NCBI RefSeq assembly: GCF_000299035.1 | Contig: NZ_JH921519.1 | Location: forward strand, 331,013-395,012 | Source of the DNA: Bacillus bingmayongensis | Lineage (GTDB): Bacteria; Bacillota; Bacilli; Bacillales; Bacillaceae_G | Length of the DNA stretch: 64,000 nt | Direction of reading: 5' to 3' | Shown here: piece after piece, positions 25,704 through 53,530 of the stretch | Numbering within the stretch: position 1 is the stretch's first letter | Layout: every line of letters begins with the position of its first letter | Program-made: the position numbers and the translations under genes | Notes under the pieces: model-generated | Told to the model about the DNA's origin: nothing | The model's input: only the letters and a program-made list of their open reading frames with translations | The model's database searches: none

Positions 25704-26200
25704 AAGTGGAAGCGGCTCGTTCAGAATGGGAGGAGGATGGAGCTTCTGACGTAGAGGCGCTTTTTGCCTCGCAGGAAGATACGAAGCCGCCGACCATTCT
25801 TGCTGGATATCTTTAAAAGTGGAAGTGGCTCGTTCAGAATGGGAGGAGGATGGAGCTTCTGACGGAGAGGCGCTTTTTGCCTCGTAGGAAGACGCGAAGC
25901 CACCGACCGTTCTTGCCCCTGGAGCTGGATATCTTTAAAAGCGGAATTGGCTCGTTCAGAATGGGAGGAGGATGGAGCTTCTGCCGTAGAGGCGCTTTTT
26001 GCCTCGTAGGAAGACGCGAAGCCACCGACCGTTCTTGCCCCTGGAGCTGGATATCTTTAAAAGCGGAATTGGCTCGTTCAGAATGGGAGGAGGATGGAGC
26101 TTCTGCCGTAGAGGCGCTTTTTGCCTCGTAGGAAGACGCGAAGCCACCGACCGTTCTTGCCCCTGGAGCTGGATATCTTTAAAAGCGGAATTGGCTCGTT
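25700..26200 (+). repeat. 122-bp tandem repeat, four units plus a fragment
   Basis: The landmark GGCTCGTTCA occurs at 25714, 25827, 25949 and 26071, with GGCTCGTT again at 26193. Periods are 113, 122, 122 and 122; the first unit lacks nine bases (CCCCTGGAG). Each unit runs TTTAAAAG(T/C)GGAA, then AGAATGGGAGGAGGATGGAGC, GAGGCGCTTTTTGCCTC and CCATTCTTG or CCGTTCTTG, ending GGAGCTGGATATC. Units two to four are almost identical. Inner and outer parts are self-complementary, giving one long hairpin per unit. Reading frames seen through it on both strands are artefacts. Confidence 0.95.
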
Positions 26201-26215
26201 CATTTAATAGCATAA

Positions 26216-26256
26216 AGAAGCCCAGCTTAAGCATCACCCAAGCTGGACTTCTTTTG
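26216..26256 (+). terminator. Terminator after the tandem repeat
   Basis: AGAAGCCCAGCTT pairs with AAGCTGGACTTCT with one mismatch, followed by TTTGT. It probably served the flavin reductase gene before the repeat arose between them. Confidence 0.75.
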
Positions 26257-26354
26257 TCCAATAAAAAATCCCCGCTATTATAAGTTGGTAATTCATGAAG
26301 GGAAAAGATTTAAAAATATTTCTTAATGATTTCTATCCCTTTTTCATTTAAAAC

Positions 26355-27768: not shown

Positions 27769-28812
27769 CTACTCTTCAATAATAATATGATGTCCTGCCG
27801 CTTTCGTTAAACGGTTCATAATCGCATTCCCAATTCCTTCATTCGGAAACGACTCACTAAAAATAACATCTACTTCACTTGCATCAAATGTTCTTAGCAC
27901 ATCGTATAATTTGGTTGCAACGCTCGCCAAATCGTTTCGCACACCACAAGACAATACAACATCTGCTTTATACACATGTTGATACTCTTCTGTAGTTAAT
28001 ACACCAACTGTATATCCTTCACTTTTCTTCTTATCCACAAGCTGTTGAATAAAATCACGAGATCCTTCAACAATACTAAGTGGTGCTTTCGGTGCATAAT
28101 GTGTATATTTCATTCCCGGTGCCTTTGGTTTTTCTTTTTCATCCTTTAATGCAGGGTCTAACGAAACAATTCCAATCACTTCTTCTAATTGCTCCTTCGT
28201 AATTCCGCCTGGACGTAAAATTGTTGGTACTTCACTTGTACAATCAATTACCGTTGATTCAACTCCAACACCCGTTGCACCGCCATCAACAATACCAGCA
28301 ATTCTCCCATTTAAATCTTCATATACGTGAGATGCTAAAGTTGGACTCGGACGCCCAGAACGATTGGCACTCGGTGCTGCAACCGGTACATTCGCTTCTT
28401 CAATAAGAGCAAGTGCCACTGGATGATCCGGCATTCTAACTCCAACTGTATCTAAACCGGCCGTAACCTTTTCGGAAATACCCTCTTTTTTCGGTAAGAT
28501 AATTGTTAAAGGTCCCGGCCAAAAGTGTTTCATCAAGACTTCTGCAACCTTTGGTATTTCCCTAACAATTCCTTTTAACTGAGATTTTGCACCAATGTGG
28601 ACAATCAATGGATTATCACTTGGTCTTCCTTTCGCTTCAAAAATTTTCGCAATCGCTTCATCATTCATTGCATTTGCCCCTAGCCCATATACCGTTTCTG
28701 TAGGGAAGGCAATCGCTTCATTTTCCTTTAGTAATCTTGCTGCTTCTTGTAATTGTGGATAATCTTTTTTTATTTCCACAACATTATCCACAACCCACAT
28801 ATTTGTATGCAT
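27769..28812 (-). CDS. ywlC: Threonylcarbamoyl-AMP synthase (Sua5/YwlC)
   Basis: Makes threonylcarbamoyl-AMP for the t6A37 tRNA modification. 347 residues in two parts: an N-terminal YrdC domain (AIAFPTETVYGLGANAM, KGRPSDNPLIVHI, FWPGPLTIIL, PSANRSGRPSPT, STVIDCTS) and a C-terminal Sua5 domain (SIVEGSRDFIQQLVDKKKSE onward). The frame extends 30 codons upstream without a ribosome site; I use the ATG at 28812, though the ATG at 28800 is possible. The 5' end of the gene lies within a DnaA-box cluster. Confidence 0.92.
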   Translation of the reverse strand: MHTNMWVVDNVVEIKKDYPQLQEAARLLKENEAIAFPTETVYGLGANAMNDEAIAKIFEAKGRPSDNPLIVHIGAKSQLKGIVREIPKVAEVLMKHFWPGPLTIILPKKEGISEKVTAGLDTVGVRMPDHPVALALIEEANVPVAAPSANRSGRPSPTLASHVYEDLNGRIAGIVDGGATGVGVESTVIDCTSEVPTILRPGGITKEQLEEVIGIVSLDPALKDEKEKPKAPGMKYTHYAPKAPLSIVEGSRDFIQQLVDKKKSEGYTVGVLTTEEYQHVYKADVVLSCGVRNDLASVATKLYDVLRTFDASEVDVIFSESFPNEGIGNAIMNRLTKAAGHHIIIEE

Positions 28813-29175
28813 TTTTTTCCACGTCCTTTTTTTCCATGAAATACTGTCTATATTTAGTTTACTATGAGATTTATCCAAAAGACAAACAAGGTTTATCCAC
28901 AAAATGTGGATAAACCTGATTAATCAGTGGATAACTTTGTGAATAGCTGACAATTTAGTATTATTACATTCTGCTGTTTTATATTTTCACAAAAATGTTC
29001 TAGCTGCTGAATATCCTCTGGAACTTTATCTTTTTCCACAGTTGTAAAGTGAAAAAACTGAAAGATCGTCACAGATTGTGGATGATTTGTGAGTAAATAC
29101 AATTGTTGAATATTTTTCTCTTTCATATACTGCAAAAACATTTCAAAAAAATATAGGAAAGTCTTGTTATCCACA
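28754..29175. promoter_or_regulatory. DnaA-box cluster around the 5' end of ywlC
   Basis: Five perfect DnaA boxes (TTATCCACA or its complement TGTGGATAA) occur at 28754-28762, 28784-28792, 28893-28901, 28905-28913 and 29167-29175. One-mismatch sites lie near 28871 (TTATCCAAA), 28926 (AGTGGATAA) and 29078 (TGTGGATGA). A nine-base word should appear about once per 130 kb on both strands, so this density is highly non-random. I recall that B. subtilis has an oriC-proximal DnaA-binding cluster at ywlC that affects replication initiation; this looks like its counterpart. Confidence 0.8.
28889..28917 (-). terminator. Hairpin built from two opposed DnaA boxes, terminator-like
   Basis: AGGTTTATCCAC (28889-28900) pairs perfectly with GTGGATAAACCT (28906-28917). 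On the minus strand it is followed by TGTTTGTCTTTT. It lies upstream of ywlC, a few bases after the stop of the gene at 28920, so it may end that transcript and also hold the two boxes. Confidence 0.55.
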
Positions 29176-29378
29176 GTAGGTGTGAACAAACAAGAACGAA
29201 CAAGCGCATTGTCTCCTTTTTGTTCATAACCAACTACAGCCTGTATTTCCCCTTCATCTTCCAATATCATAAATTGCTCATATAACTCATTTATTTTATC
29301 ATCTTTTTTATTAGCTTGTCCGAAAAAAGAATATAATCTTTCAACATCATTTTTTGTAGCAAAGTAAGTCTTTTTCAC
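28920..29378 (-). CDS. Putative GNAT-like acetyltransferase (YwlB position)
   Basis: 152 residues. The pattern of a short helix, EDEGEIQAVVGYEQKGDNAL and LYLLTNHPQSVTIFQFFHF, and the location between ywlC and spoIIR as for B. subtilis ywlB, suggest a GNAT-fold acetyltransferase, but the acetyl-CoA loop is weak, so the call is tentative. I use a GTG at 29378, seven bases after GGGGGG; a TTG at 29384 is too close to the ribosome site. Part of the DnaA-box cluster lies inside it. Confidence 0.55.
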   Translation of the reverse strand: MKKTYFATKNDVERLYSFFGQANKKDDKINELYEQFMILEDEGEIQAVVGYEQKGDNALVRSCLFTPTVDNKTFLYFFEMFLQYMKEKNIQQLYLLTNHPQSVTIFQFFHFTTVEKDKVPEDIQQLEHFCENIKQQNVIILNCQLFTKLSTD

Positions 29379-29428
29379 GATCAATCCCCCCTCACTTCTA
29401 TATATGAGGAGGGATAAGAAAATAGTAC

Positions 29429-35494: not shown

Positions 35495-35656
35495 TCAGAC
35501 ACCACACTTTAACGTTATTCTCTTTTCACATGGGTAAAGGGAAAATATACGGAAGGCAAATACATAATAATGAAAGGCAATAAGTTCAAGTAGGGTAATA
35601 TTCACTATTGTAACCCTTTTGTCTAGTTTTAATCAATACGTTGTAACACAAATACA

Positions 35657-35690
35657 AGAAGCGAAGACAAGAAAAGTTGTCTCCGCTTTT
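35657..35690. repeat. Mini palindrome resembling the repeat ends
   Basis: AAGCGAAGACAA (35659-35670) pairs with TTGTCTCCGCTT (35677-35688) with one mismatch, followed by TTAT. The AAGCGAAGAC end resembles the start of the unit at 32831. The remaining 35495-35750 sequence holds no gene. Confidence 0.45.
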
Positions 35691-35749
35691 ATATCGCTTC
35701 CGTTTCTCTCTATTTATAGCATGTGGATAAGGGCTAGATCAGAGCTGAT

Positions 35750-35892
35750 TAAGCCACCTCCGCTTTTTATTACAATCCAGTTCCAGCAGCTAGAATGGCC
35801 GGTGGCTTCGCGTCTTCCTACGAGGCAAAAAGCGCCTCTTCGTCAGAAGCTCCATCCCCCTCCCATTCTGAACGAGCTGCTTCCACTTTTTA
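35750..35892 (-). repeat. Full 122-bp repeat copy abutting the glpX stop
   Basis: Read on the minus strand from 35892: TAAATAAAAAGTGGAAGCAGC, CAGAATGGGAGGGGGATGGAGC, a GAGGCGCTTTTTGCCTC tip, CGGCCATTCTAGCTGCTGGA and a further CCGCTTTTTATTA end. The glpX TAA stop is separated from the element start by one base triplet at most. Same orientation as glpX. Confidence 0.85.
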
Positions 35893-36855
35893 TTTAATAA
35901 CCAAATTCGGTTTTTTGTTTAAGCTATGACGTCCGTCGACGAAACGAACTGTACCGGATTTTGCACGCATAACAAGAGATTCTGTTGTACCAACGCTGCC
36001 TTTAAATTGAACACCGCGTAGTAATTCTCCATCTGTTACACCTGTTGCTGCAAAGATCGCATCGTCACCTTTCACTAAGTCTTCCATACGAAGAATACGA
36101 TTTATATCTTCAATGCCCATTTTTTTGCAACGAGCTAACTCTGCTTCGTTTTGAGGAAGAAGCTTCCCGTGAATTTCTCCACCTAAGCATTTTAATGCAA
36201 CTGCTGCAAGAACGCCTTCAGGTGCACCACCAGAACCGAATAAAATATCAACACCTGTACGATCAAATGCTGTATTAATCGCTCCAGCTACATCGCCATC
36301 ATTAATCAATTTAATACGAGCGCCAGCTTTACGAATTTCTTCAATAATCGCTTGGTGACGTGGTCGGTTTAGAACTGTTGCAACAACATCTTCAATATCT
36401 TTATTCTTTGCCTTTGCAACGGCACGTAAGTTATCAATAATAGGTGCGTCAATATCAACTGCACCAACCGCTTCTGGTCCAACCGCAATTTTATCCATGT
36501 ACATGTCAGGAGCATGTAACAAATTACCATGATCCGCAATCGCAATAACAGCAAGTGCATTCCAGCCCCCAGCTGCCACGATATTTGTTCCTTCTAACGG
36601 ATCAACTGCAACATCGACACGTGGGCCGTATCCCGTACCTAATTTCTCCCCGATGTATAGCATTGGCGCTTCATCCATTTCTCCTTCGCCAATTACAACT
36701 GTACCTTTCATCGGAATTGTATCGAATACATCACGCATTGCTGATGTTGCTGCACCATCAGCCTCATCTTTCTTTCCGCGTCCCATCCAACGCGCTGATG
36801 ATAATGCTGCAGCCTCTGTTACACGTACTAACTCCATAGATAAACTTCTTTCCAA
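35890..36855 (-). CDS. glpX: Fructose-1,6-bisphosphatase class II
   Basis: Gluconeogenic phosphatase, 321 residues. Metal and substrate motifs: [47 protein letters not shown]. Start codon TTG at 36855, seven bases after GGAGAGG. It lies between murA2 and rho; fba, the aldolase of the same pathway section, is two genes upstream. Confidence 0.95.
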
Positions 36856-52504: not shown

Positions 52505-53458
52505 ATGATCATACGCTTTGGATATGTCTCACATGCAGTCGCATTGTGGGACTGTTCTCCTGCCAAAACAATGACATTTACAACGTGGAGCAAGCTAGGA
52601 AAACAAGAACGAGAAGAAAAATTATATAACATTACAATACAAAATCTTATGCATACATTACGTATCCTTCATTACAATATCGCACATGAAATTCCATTAT
52701 ACCGATTATCATCTTCCATTGTTCCACTAGCAACCCATCCTGAAGTCGATTTTGATTATATCAATATCTTTAAACCACTTTGGCATAAGATAGGGGAATT
52801 AATTCGAGAGCATAACTTACGGGTTAGCTTTCATCCAAACCAGTTCACATTATTTACAAGTGAAAAATCTCATATCACAGACAATGCTGTGTTAGATATG
52901 ACATATCACTATAATGTATTAGATGCAATGAGTTTAGCGGATTCTTCTTATATTAATATTCATGTAGGTGGTGCATATGGTAACAAAGAAAAAGCAATTC
53001 TGCGCTTTCATGAGAATATAAAAAAGCTTCCATCACCTATCAAACAGCAAATGACACTTGAAAATGATGATAAAACATATACAGCTTCTGAAACATTAGC
53101 TATTTGCCAGGAAGAAAGAATTCCTTTTGTCTTTGATTATCATCATCACATAGCAAATATTTGTGATGAACCGTTAGAGGAACTACTACCAGTTATTTTC
53201 GAAACGTGGAATCATACACATACAGTTCCTAAAGTCCATATTTCTTCACCGAGGTCAGAAAAGGAATTCAGAGCTCACGCTGACTATATTGATGCTGCAT
53301 TTATAAAACCTTTTTTACACATTGCCAAGGTCATGAATCAGGACTTCGATATCATGATTGAGAGCAAACAAAAAGATTTAGCACTGTTTCAGTTAGTCGA
53401 TGAGCTTGCTTCTATAAGAGGAATAAAACGGACAAGCGGTGCAACGTTACAATGGTAA
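52505..53458 (+). CDS. uvsE: UV DNA damage repair endonuclease UvsE
   Basis: 317 residues of the TIM-barrel UV damage endonuclease family. [20 protein letters not shown] at the N-terminus, [42 protein letters not shown] and [13 protein letters not shown] carry the metal-binding His/Glu/Asp residues. Start preceded by GAGGTG. Follows ywjE at 32 bases; B. subtilis ywjD is its counterpart. Confidence 0.93.
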
Positions 53459-53468
53459 TTGTAACGTT

Positions 53469-53530
53469 CAGGCTGTGGAGAAAGTCTTATCCACAACCTG
53501 AAAAAAGAACCCATCAATGGGTTCTTTTTC
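53469..53530. terminator. Terminator pair between uvsE and papR
   Basis: AAAAGAACCCAT (53503-53514) pairs with ATGGGTTCTTTT (53517-53528), with U-runs both ways, serving convergent uvsE and papR. A second hairpin CAGGCTGTGGA/TCCACAACCTG precedes it at 53470-53500. Confidence 0.88.

Follow-up and report, generated by a model that had tools for sequence, protein, structure and literature searches.

A recurrent DnaA-box cluster at the start of ywlC in Bacillus bingmayongensis and other Bacillales

The start of ywlC in Bacillus bingmayongensis is embedded in a dense cluster of DnaA boxes whose layout recurs in other Bacillales. Four things are apparent in the sequences that we compared: the boxes themselves, the recurring layout, selection at the DNA level on the boxes that lie in coding sequence, and the overlap of a facing pair of boxes with a terminator-like hairpin. 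We consider it likely that this is a conserved DnaA-binding cluster that serves both as a DnaA sink and as an operator of ywlC and that, in some genera, carries a terminator as well. In view of the B. subtilis precedent this kind of element is already known, and the window (the whole 64-kb stretch of DNA that was analysed) carries its counterpart. What is new here is the depth and exactness with which the ywlC cluster is conserved.

The cluster sits at the junction of two genes of the same strand. The downstream gene was identified as ywlC by its match to TIGR00057 and by its Pfam domains (Sua5_yciO_yrdC from residue 27, plus Sua5_C), and its start agrees with the starts in relatives. The upstream ORF occupies the position of ywlB and is preceded on the same strand by spoIIR, prmC and prfA. 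A Pfam search of this ORF gave no match; it is weakly acetyltransferase-like, with a sub-threshold match to an ArsN2 N-acetyltransferase model (45.7 of 125 bits). A promoter scan at ywlC returned 13 promoter-like hits, compared to 14.9 in shuffled sequences, and singled out none. The features of the locus, with offsets given relative to the ywlC ATG, are as follows.

27769..28812, minus strand: ywlC/tsaC, Sua5-type L-threonylcarbamoyladenylate synthase; ATG at 28812; TIGR00057 at 220.7 bits
28754..28762, minus strand: exact DnaA box within ywlC codons 17-20, offset +50
28784..28792, plus strand: exact DnaA box within ywlC codons 7-10, offset +20
28871..28879, plus strand: one-mismatch box TTATCCAAA, between the facing pair and ywlC
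28889..28917, minus strand: hairpin of the box pair and its complementary flanks, with a 13-pair stem (5 G-C), a 3-nt loop and, behind it, a TGTTTGTCTT tail
28893..28901, plus strand: exact DnaA box, ATG-proximal partner of the facing pair, offset -89
28905..28913, minus strand: exact DnaA box, ATG-distal partner of the facing pair, offset -101
28920..29384, minus strand: ywlB-position ORF, upstream of ywlC, named from its position only
28926..28934, minus strand: one-mismatch box TTATCCACT, overlapping the final codons of the ywlB-position ORF
29032..29040, plus strand: one-mismatch box TTTTCCACA, within the ywlB-position ORF
29077..29085, minus strand: one-mismatch box TCATCCACA, within the ywlB-position ORF
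29167..29175, plus strand: exact DnaA box within the ywlB-position ORF, offset -363

The interval 28754-29175, which spans the ywlC start, therefore holds five exact TTATCCACA boxes and four boxes with one mismatch. A preliminary description of this DNA had reported five exact boxes in about 420 bases, and all five were located; it had counted three one-mismatch sites, one fewer than the four found here (28871, 28926, 29032 and 29077). It had also described two of the boxes as facing each other in a hairpin four bases apart. The hairpin was confirmed, with its stem of 13 pairs, but the spacer is three bases long (28902-28904). As that description had said, the boxes overlap coding sequence, two of the exact ones falling within the first 20 codons of ywlC.

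The whole window contains 10 exact sites, whereas 400 sequences simulated with a first-order Markov model averaged 0.63; the window is thus box-rich as a whole. In the simulated sequences the largest number of exact boxes in any 422 bp was two, a value reached in 1 of the 400. Poisson probabilities for five boxes in 422 bp were 7e-15 and 2e-13 at the rates of two relatives and about 3e-10 at the window's own rate outside the cluster, where five exact boxes occur (23448, 28031, 31263, 35722 and 53487). Totals of exact sites in six relatives ranged from 35 to 87 per genome. When up to one mismatch was allowed the excess over the whole window was modest: 30 sites versus 19.05 expected (sd 4.52), with 1 of 100 shuffles as high.

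Two other features of the window were recorded. A second facing pair, TGTGGAGAA followed by TTATCCACA with a spacer of four bases, lies at 53474-53495, directly after an ORF (52505-53458) that we take by eye to be UV-endonuclease-like; this pair may be a terminator hairpin with a likeness to DnaA boxes. In addition, the peptide RQKAPLRQKLHPPPILNE is common to the ORF translations at 25850-26283 and 35619-35897, which indicates a dispersed DNA repeat.

Relatives of the window's locus were examined at two depths. Among the 45 best-scoring loci of the family and order, which are top hits and not a random draw, the facing pair and the +20 and +50 boxes recur in many combinations, and in Ectobacillus panaciterrae and E. 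funiculus (L001 and L029) the central boxes lie at the identical offsets -101, -89, +20 and +50. The closest ywlC in any search was 73-74% identical to that of the window; the survey lies beyond the window's species group, which is presumably B. cereus-group-like. Class Bacilli was sampled evenly, with a ywlC hit in 150 of 151 genomes; 130 loci were examined and 20 genomes, mostly with short, partial or remote ywlC matches, were left out. Between -300 and +60, 68 of these 130 loci had at least one exact box and 48 had at least two. Control intervals of the same size had at least one exact box in 6 of 130 loci (-960 to -600) and 16 of 130 (+130 to +490), and the reversed box word was found at 0 of the 130 class ywlC loci. 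These controls, together with the simulations, exclude a chance origin of the cluster. The commonest exact offsets were +20 (37 of 130 loci), +50 (17) and +32 (7), and the bins from -150 to +99 held 126 of the 178 exact boxes counted between -700 and +480.

Conservation of the cluster in distant Bacillus, as the preliminary description proposed, is strongly supported across the Bacillales, yet it is patchy, and this counts against a conserved cluster: 62 of the 130 class loci had no exact core box anywhere between -300 and +60. On a tree of 143 rows, built from few columns, exact boxes were absent from all four Clostridia rows and from three clades, each made up of ten class loci, and the character "two or more boxes" required 19 changes as compared to a shuffled mean of 43. 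At two Macrococcus loci boxes were present and their offsets differed. Since the sampled genomes are related, all of these counts are not independent. The start of one locus (L178) was mis-set in the layout, codon, entropy, covariation and tree counts and was correct in the class box counts and in the stem and partner counts.

Of 299 genomes of the order, 100 had a perfect facing pair. Positions relative to ywlC were counted in 45 of the 60 genomes among the matches listed, the 15 without a listed ywlC place (G065 and G132 among them) being omitted. Of the 60 perfect pairs in these 45 genomes, 37 were located upstream of ywlC at a distance of 69-115 bp, each with a spacer of three; in the other 23, which lay elsewhere, the spacer was 2, 3 or 4. 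Five genomes (G053:C4:211581, G080:C1:504989, G142:C6:160706, G168:C1:2803516 and G304:C1:1963164) had no perfect pair at ywlC but one with a 3-base gap about 111-153 kb from ywlC on the same contig; oriC is a possible location of these pairs. Three genomes (G065, G103 and G132) carried a perfect pair about 3 kb from mnmE, in G065 and G132 at a place other than ywlC.

If the boxes inside ywlC were held as DNA, the choice among synonymous codons should be restricted where they lie. The codon counts were made in a pool of 175 loci (the window, the 45 best-scoring loci and the 130 class loci, one of them shared). Residues 8-9 are Val-Asp in 83 loci, and the +20 box was exact in 67 of them. Val8 was GTG in 81 of these 83, against a background of 25% at valines later in the same genes, and the base before it, the third of codon 7, was T in 79 (background 38%); the signal at Asp9 was weak (GAT in 78, or 94%, vs 74%). 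Exact boxes in the +50 region were present in 38 of the 54 loci with YPQ at residues 18-20. Here Pro19 was CCA in 54 of 54 (background 35%) and the base before Tyr18 was T in 49, and Tyr18 again gave a weak signal (TAT in 43, or 80%, vs 75%). In 61 sequences thinned at 80% nucleotide identity, a step applied only for this test, 47 conserved four-fold columns were compared, and the lowest synonymous entropy, 0.24 bits against a median of 1.82, was that of Val8; the Pro19 column was too poorly conserved to enter. The second-lowest value belonged to Val12 (0.75 bits), which is compatible with a +32 box. That box is exact in 11 of the 175 loci and absent from the window, so the case for a third coding site is weaker.

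The near-fixation of GTG at Val8, the most constrained column, indicates that the +20 coding box is held as DNA. It could be argued instead that the pattern reflects chance or the protein, with the peptide VD[N/K]...YPQ being needed and the DNA merely following it. The residues are indeed common to many Bacillales YwlC proteins, and codon use at Tyr18 is near background; however, a need for the peptide does not account for frozen synonymous choices at Val8, at codon 7 and at Pro19, nor for the entropy minimum at Val8. The +20 and +50 stretches, moreover, precede the Pfam Sua5 domain, and the DNA word is therefore a better explanation of the codons than the protein. Protein constraint alone is rejected by the codon test, and we regard this explanation as highly improbable. 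An RNA hairpin as the sole constraint on the +20 box was likewise rejected, as 16 of the 68 loci with an exact +20 box lack a facing partner (up to one mismatch, +29 to +120).

The facing pair upstream of ywlC probably doubles as an intrinsic terminator in the nearer clades, judging from its sequence. In the window the hairpin at 28889..28917 lies directly after the stop codon of the ywlB-position ORF and has the stem-loop and U-rich tract of an intrinsic terminator. A scan of 5 kb gave eight terminator-like stems, compared to 2.8 in shuffled sequences, and this hairpin was the longest of them. The RNA from 28868 to 28927 is predicted to fold at -22.3 kcal/mol (z -5.57), and in this fold the T-rich tail is also paired, as part of another small hairpin. 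Within the 175-locus pool, a facing pair with no more than two mismatches lies between -250 and 0 in 89 loci, and the gap is three bases in 74 of them. Flank positions 1-3 of these 74 are Watson-Crick paired in 46, 55 and 51 loci, as compared to 22.8, 22.8 and 25.2 expected, and the pairing arises through several pair types, as in covariation. The flanks lengthen the stem by at least four pairs in 35 of the 74, of which 31 are followed by ten bases that include five or more T, whereas the other 39 retain boxes (up to two mismatches) without an extended stem. These data suggest a terminator in the nearer clades and boxes kept without one elsewhere. Departures from the boxes within the pair comprise 23 G-U on the ywlB-sense strand, 9 C-A and 34 plain mismatches. 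A DNA cruciform is not favoured by the excess of G-U departures on the ywlB-sense strand (23 vs 9 on the other strand), although this evidence is weak because 12 of the 23 represent a single change, mostly in one clade.

One could go further and see the pair above all as an RNA element, namely an intrinsic terminator whose likeness to DnaA boxes is incidental. The long stem with its T-rich tail, the low fold z score, the covarying flanks, the T tracts behind extended stems and the preponderance of G-U over C-A departures all fit such an origin. On the other hand, more than half of the gap-3 pairs keep their boxes without the extended stem, few of the stem pairs in the window are G-C, the tail is paired in the predicted fold, and 34 of the departures within the pair are plain mismatches. 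The coding boxes, in addition, need no hairpin: of the 9 loci that lack a downstream facing partner, 8 have GTG at Val8. A terminator as the sole explanation is ruled out by these coding boxes, and we think it very unlikely that the box likeness of the pair is incidental.

DnaA-box clusters of B. subtilis were reportedly treated by Okumura et al. in 2012. We found no statement in the literature on conservation of the ywlC cluster in other Bacillus; Okumura et al. 2012, which our literature survey did not cover, may discuss it. In the in vitro DnaA map of B. subtilis, region 6 of the top 20 is "upstream of ywlC; downstream of ywlB" and has 9 sites, with a Kd of 0.25 uM for ATP-DnaA and 0.45 uM for ADP-DnaA (PMC4447404); the B. 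subtilis cluster that the preliminary description had cited is thus real. DnaA "appears to directly repress" ywlC in that species (PMC4447404), and ywlC is one of eight directly DnaA-regulated gene sets (PMC8203912). Region 6 (Smith and Grossman 2015) and the locus described here share the ywlB/ywlC junction and a large number of boxes. They differ in that binding has been mapped in B. subtilis while the B. bingmayongensis sequence has exact boxes early in ywlC and a perfect facing pair. Extra-origin clusters are described as sequestering DnaA (PMC11019786). B. subtilis without six of them initiates early (PMC5295017, PMC13220808); the effect is strong only once all six are removed, and a review notes that no B. 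subtilis clusters with significant roles had been identified so far (PMC5295017). The table that lists ywlC also contains DnaA regions at gcp/tsaD-ydiF, yqeG-sda, yydA/rlmH and trmE/mnmE, and trmE and dnaA fall within one 7-kb region (PMC4447404).

Several of these B. subtilis regions recur in relatives, ywlC and tsaD most often and yqeG least. We take the B. subtilis names gcp, yydA and trmE to be equivalent to tsaD, rlmH and mnmE, respectively. These regions differ from the ywlC cluster in the genes concerned, in the 3' location of the tsaD boxes and in the narrower range of yqeG/sda. In a set of 30 genomes taken from the class sample, 28 had exact boxes up to 1.5 kb 3' of tsaD (at least two within 420 bp in 22), as compared to one box in one genome on its 5' side; the G035 locus (from the L281-L310 set) extends only about 100 bases 3' of the gene, which makes its zero uninformative. 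Upstream of mnmE there were exact boxes in 23 of 30 genomes (at least two in 12); the corresponding counts were 22 of 29 for rlmH (at least two in 15) and 10 of 29 for yqeG (at least two in 9), and the opposite side of each compared gene had a mean of 0.00-0.03. In G385 the YqeG match (L340) was below the cut-off and was left out, no RlmH match was found and the MnmE match was partial. At ywlC at least two exact boxes were present in 23 of 30 genomes, a figure that is biased upward as the genomes were picked for good ywlC hits. In the 13 of 30 genomes whose ywlC and mnmE share a contig, the two genes were about 123-557 kb apart.

We infer an extra-origin DnaA-binding cluster that is the positional counterpart of the one at B. 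subtilis ywlC. DnaA would bind the box array which, if it lies fairly near oriC as in relatives, would be duplicated early; the duplicated array would soak up DnaA soon after initiation and so delay the next round. Bound to the boxes from -101 to +58, DnaA would block transcription of ywlC, and the facing pair would probably end transcription from upstream (prfA, prmC, spoIIR and the ywlB-position ORF), insulating ywlC in this and the nearer genera.

Another possibility is that the cluster is mainly an operator through which DnaA represses ywlC, and with it t6A synthesis, in step with DnaA activity, titration being a side effect. The crowding of class boxes around the ywlC start, including the stretch just behind the start codon, would fit this, as does the repression reported in B. 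subtilis (PMC4447404). However, promoter repression is not an obvious role for the tsaD boxes, and the exact box at 29167 lies deep within the ywlB-position ORF. We regard a role mainly as an operator as possible, though on balance unlikely. A sink is favoured because the tsaD boxes sit 3' of their gene and an operator because boxes hug the ywlC start; sequence alone cannot separate the two.

The cluster might also resemble the E. coli elements that alter the nucleotide state of DnaA instead of storing it. DARS are non-origin loci of E. coli with several DnaA boxes that affect initiation. The E. coli datA locus is of the same general kind, and it requires IHF and acts on DnaA-ATP hydrolysis (PMC5295017). 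Ordered boxes at fixed spacing would suit such an element, as would the somewhat better binding of ATP-DnaA at B. subtilis ywlC (PMC4447404), but B. subtilis is described as having no Hda, SeqA, IHF, datA or DARS loci (PMC13220808). A datA- or DARS-like element is therefore improbable here, and we return to the sink and operator as the likely roles.

The two most recurrent of the five loci compared, tsaC (ywlC) and tsaD, are both t6A genes, and the level of DnaA may thus be coupled to t6A supply and hence to translation. It could be speculated that the first 20 or so tsaC codons are largely written by DnaA across the Bacillales, with a fixed scaffold (the facing pair with its 3-nt gap and boxes at +20, +32 or +50) being kept while the protein adapted to it, DnaA being coupled to t6A and the hairpin serving as binding site and terminator at once. 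A literature search on a link between DnaA and t6A gave a single hit, unrelated by its title, and we offer this reading only tentatively, as a doubtful one.

Conservation that is exact in place and reaches to single codons over an order argues that the ywlC cluster is under selection. The constrained arrangement can be named: a facing pair with a 3-nt gap, and boxes at +20, at +50 and more rarely at +32. It provides an example of regulatory DNA that dictates which codons an enzyme gene uses, and one sequence may act in it as both initiator site and terminator. Replication control through ywlC may likewise be conserved across Bacillus, as the layout suggests. The cluster bears on the timing of replication in B. 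subtilis and its kin, which do without Hda, SeqA or datA (PMC13220808).
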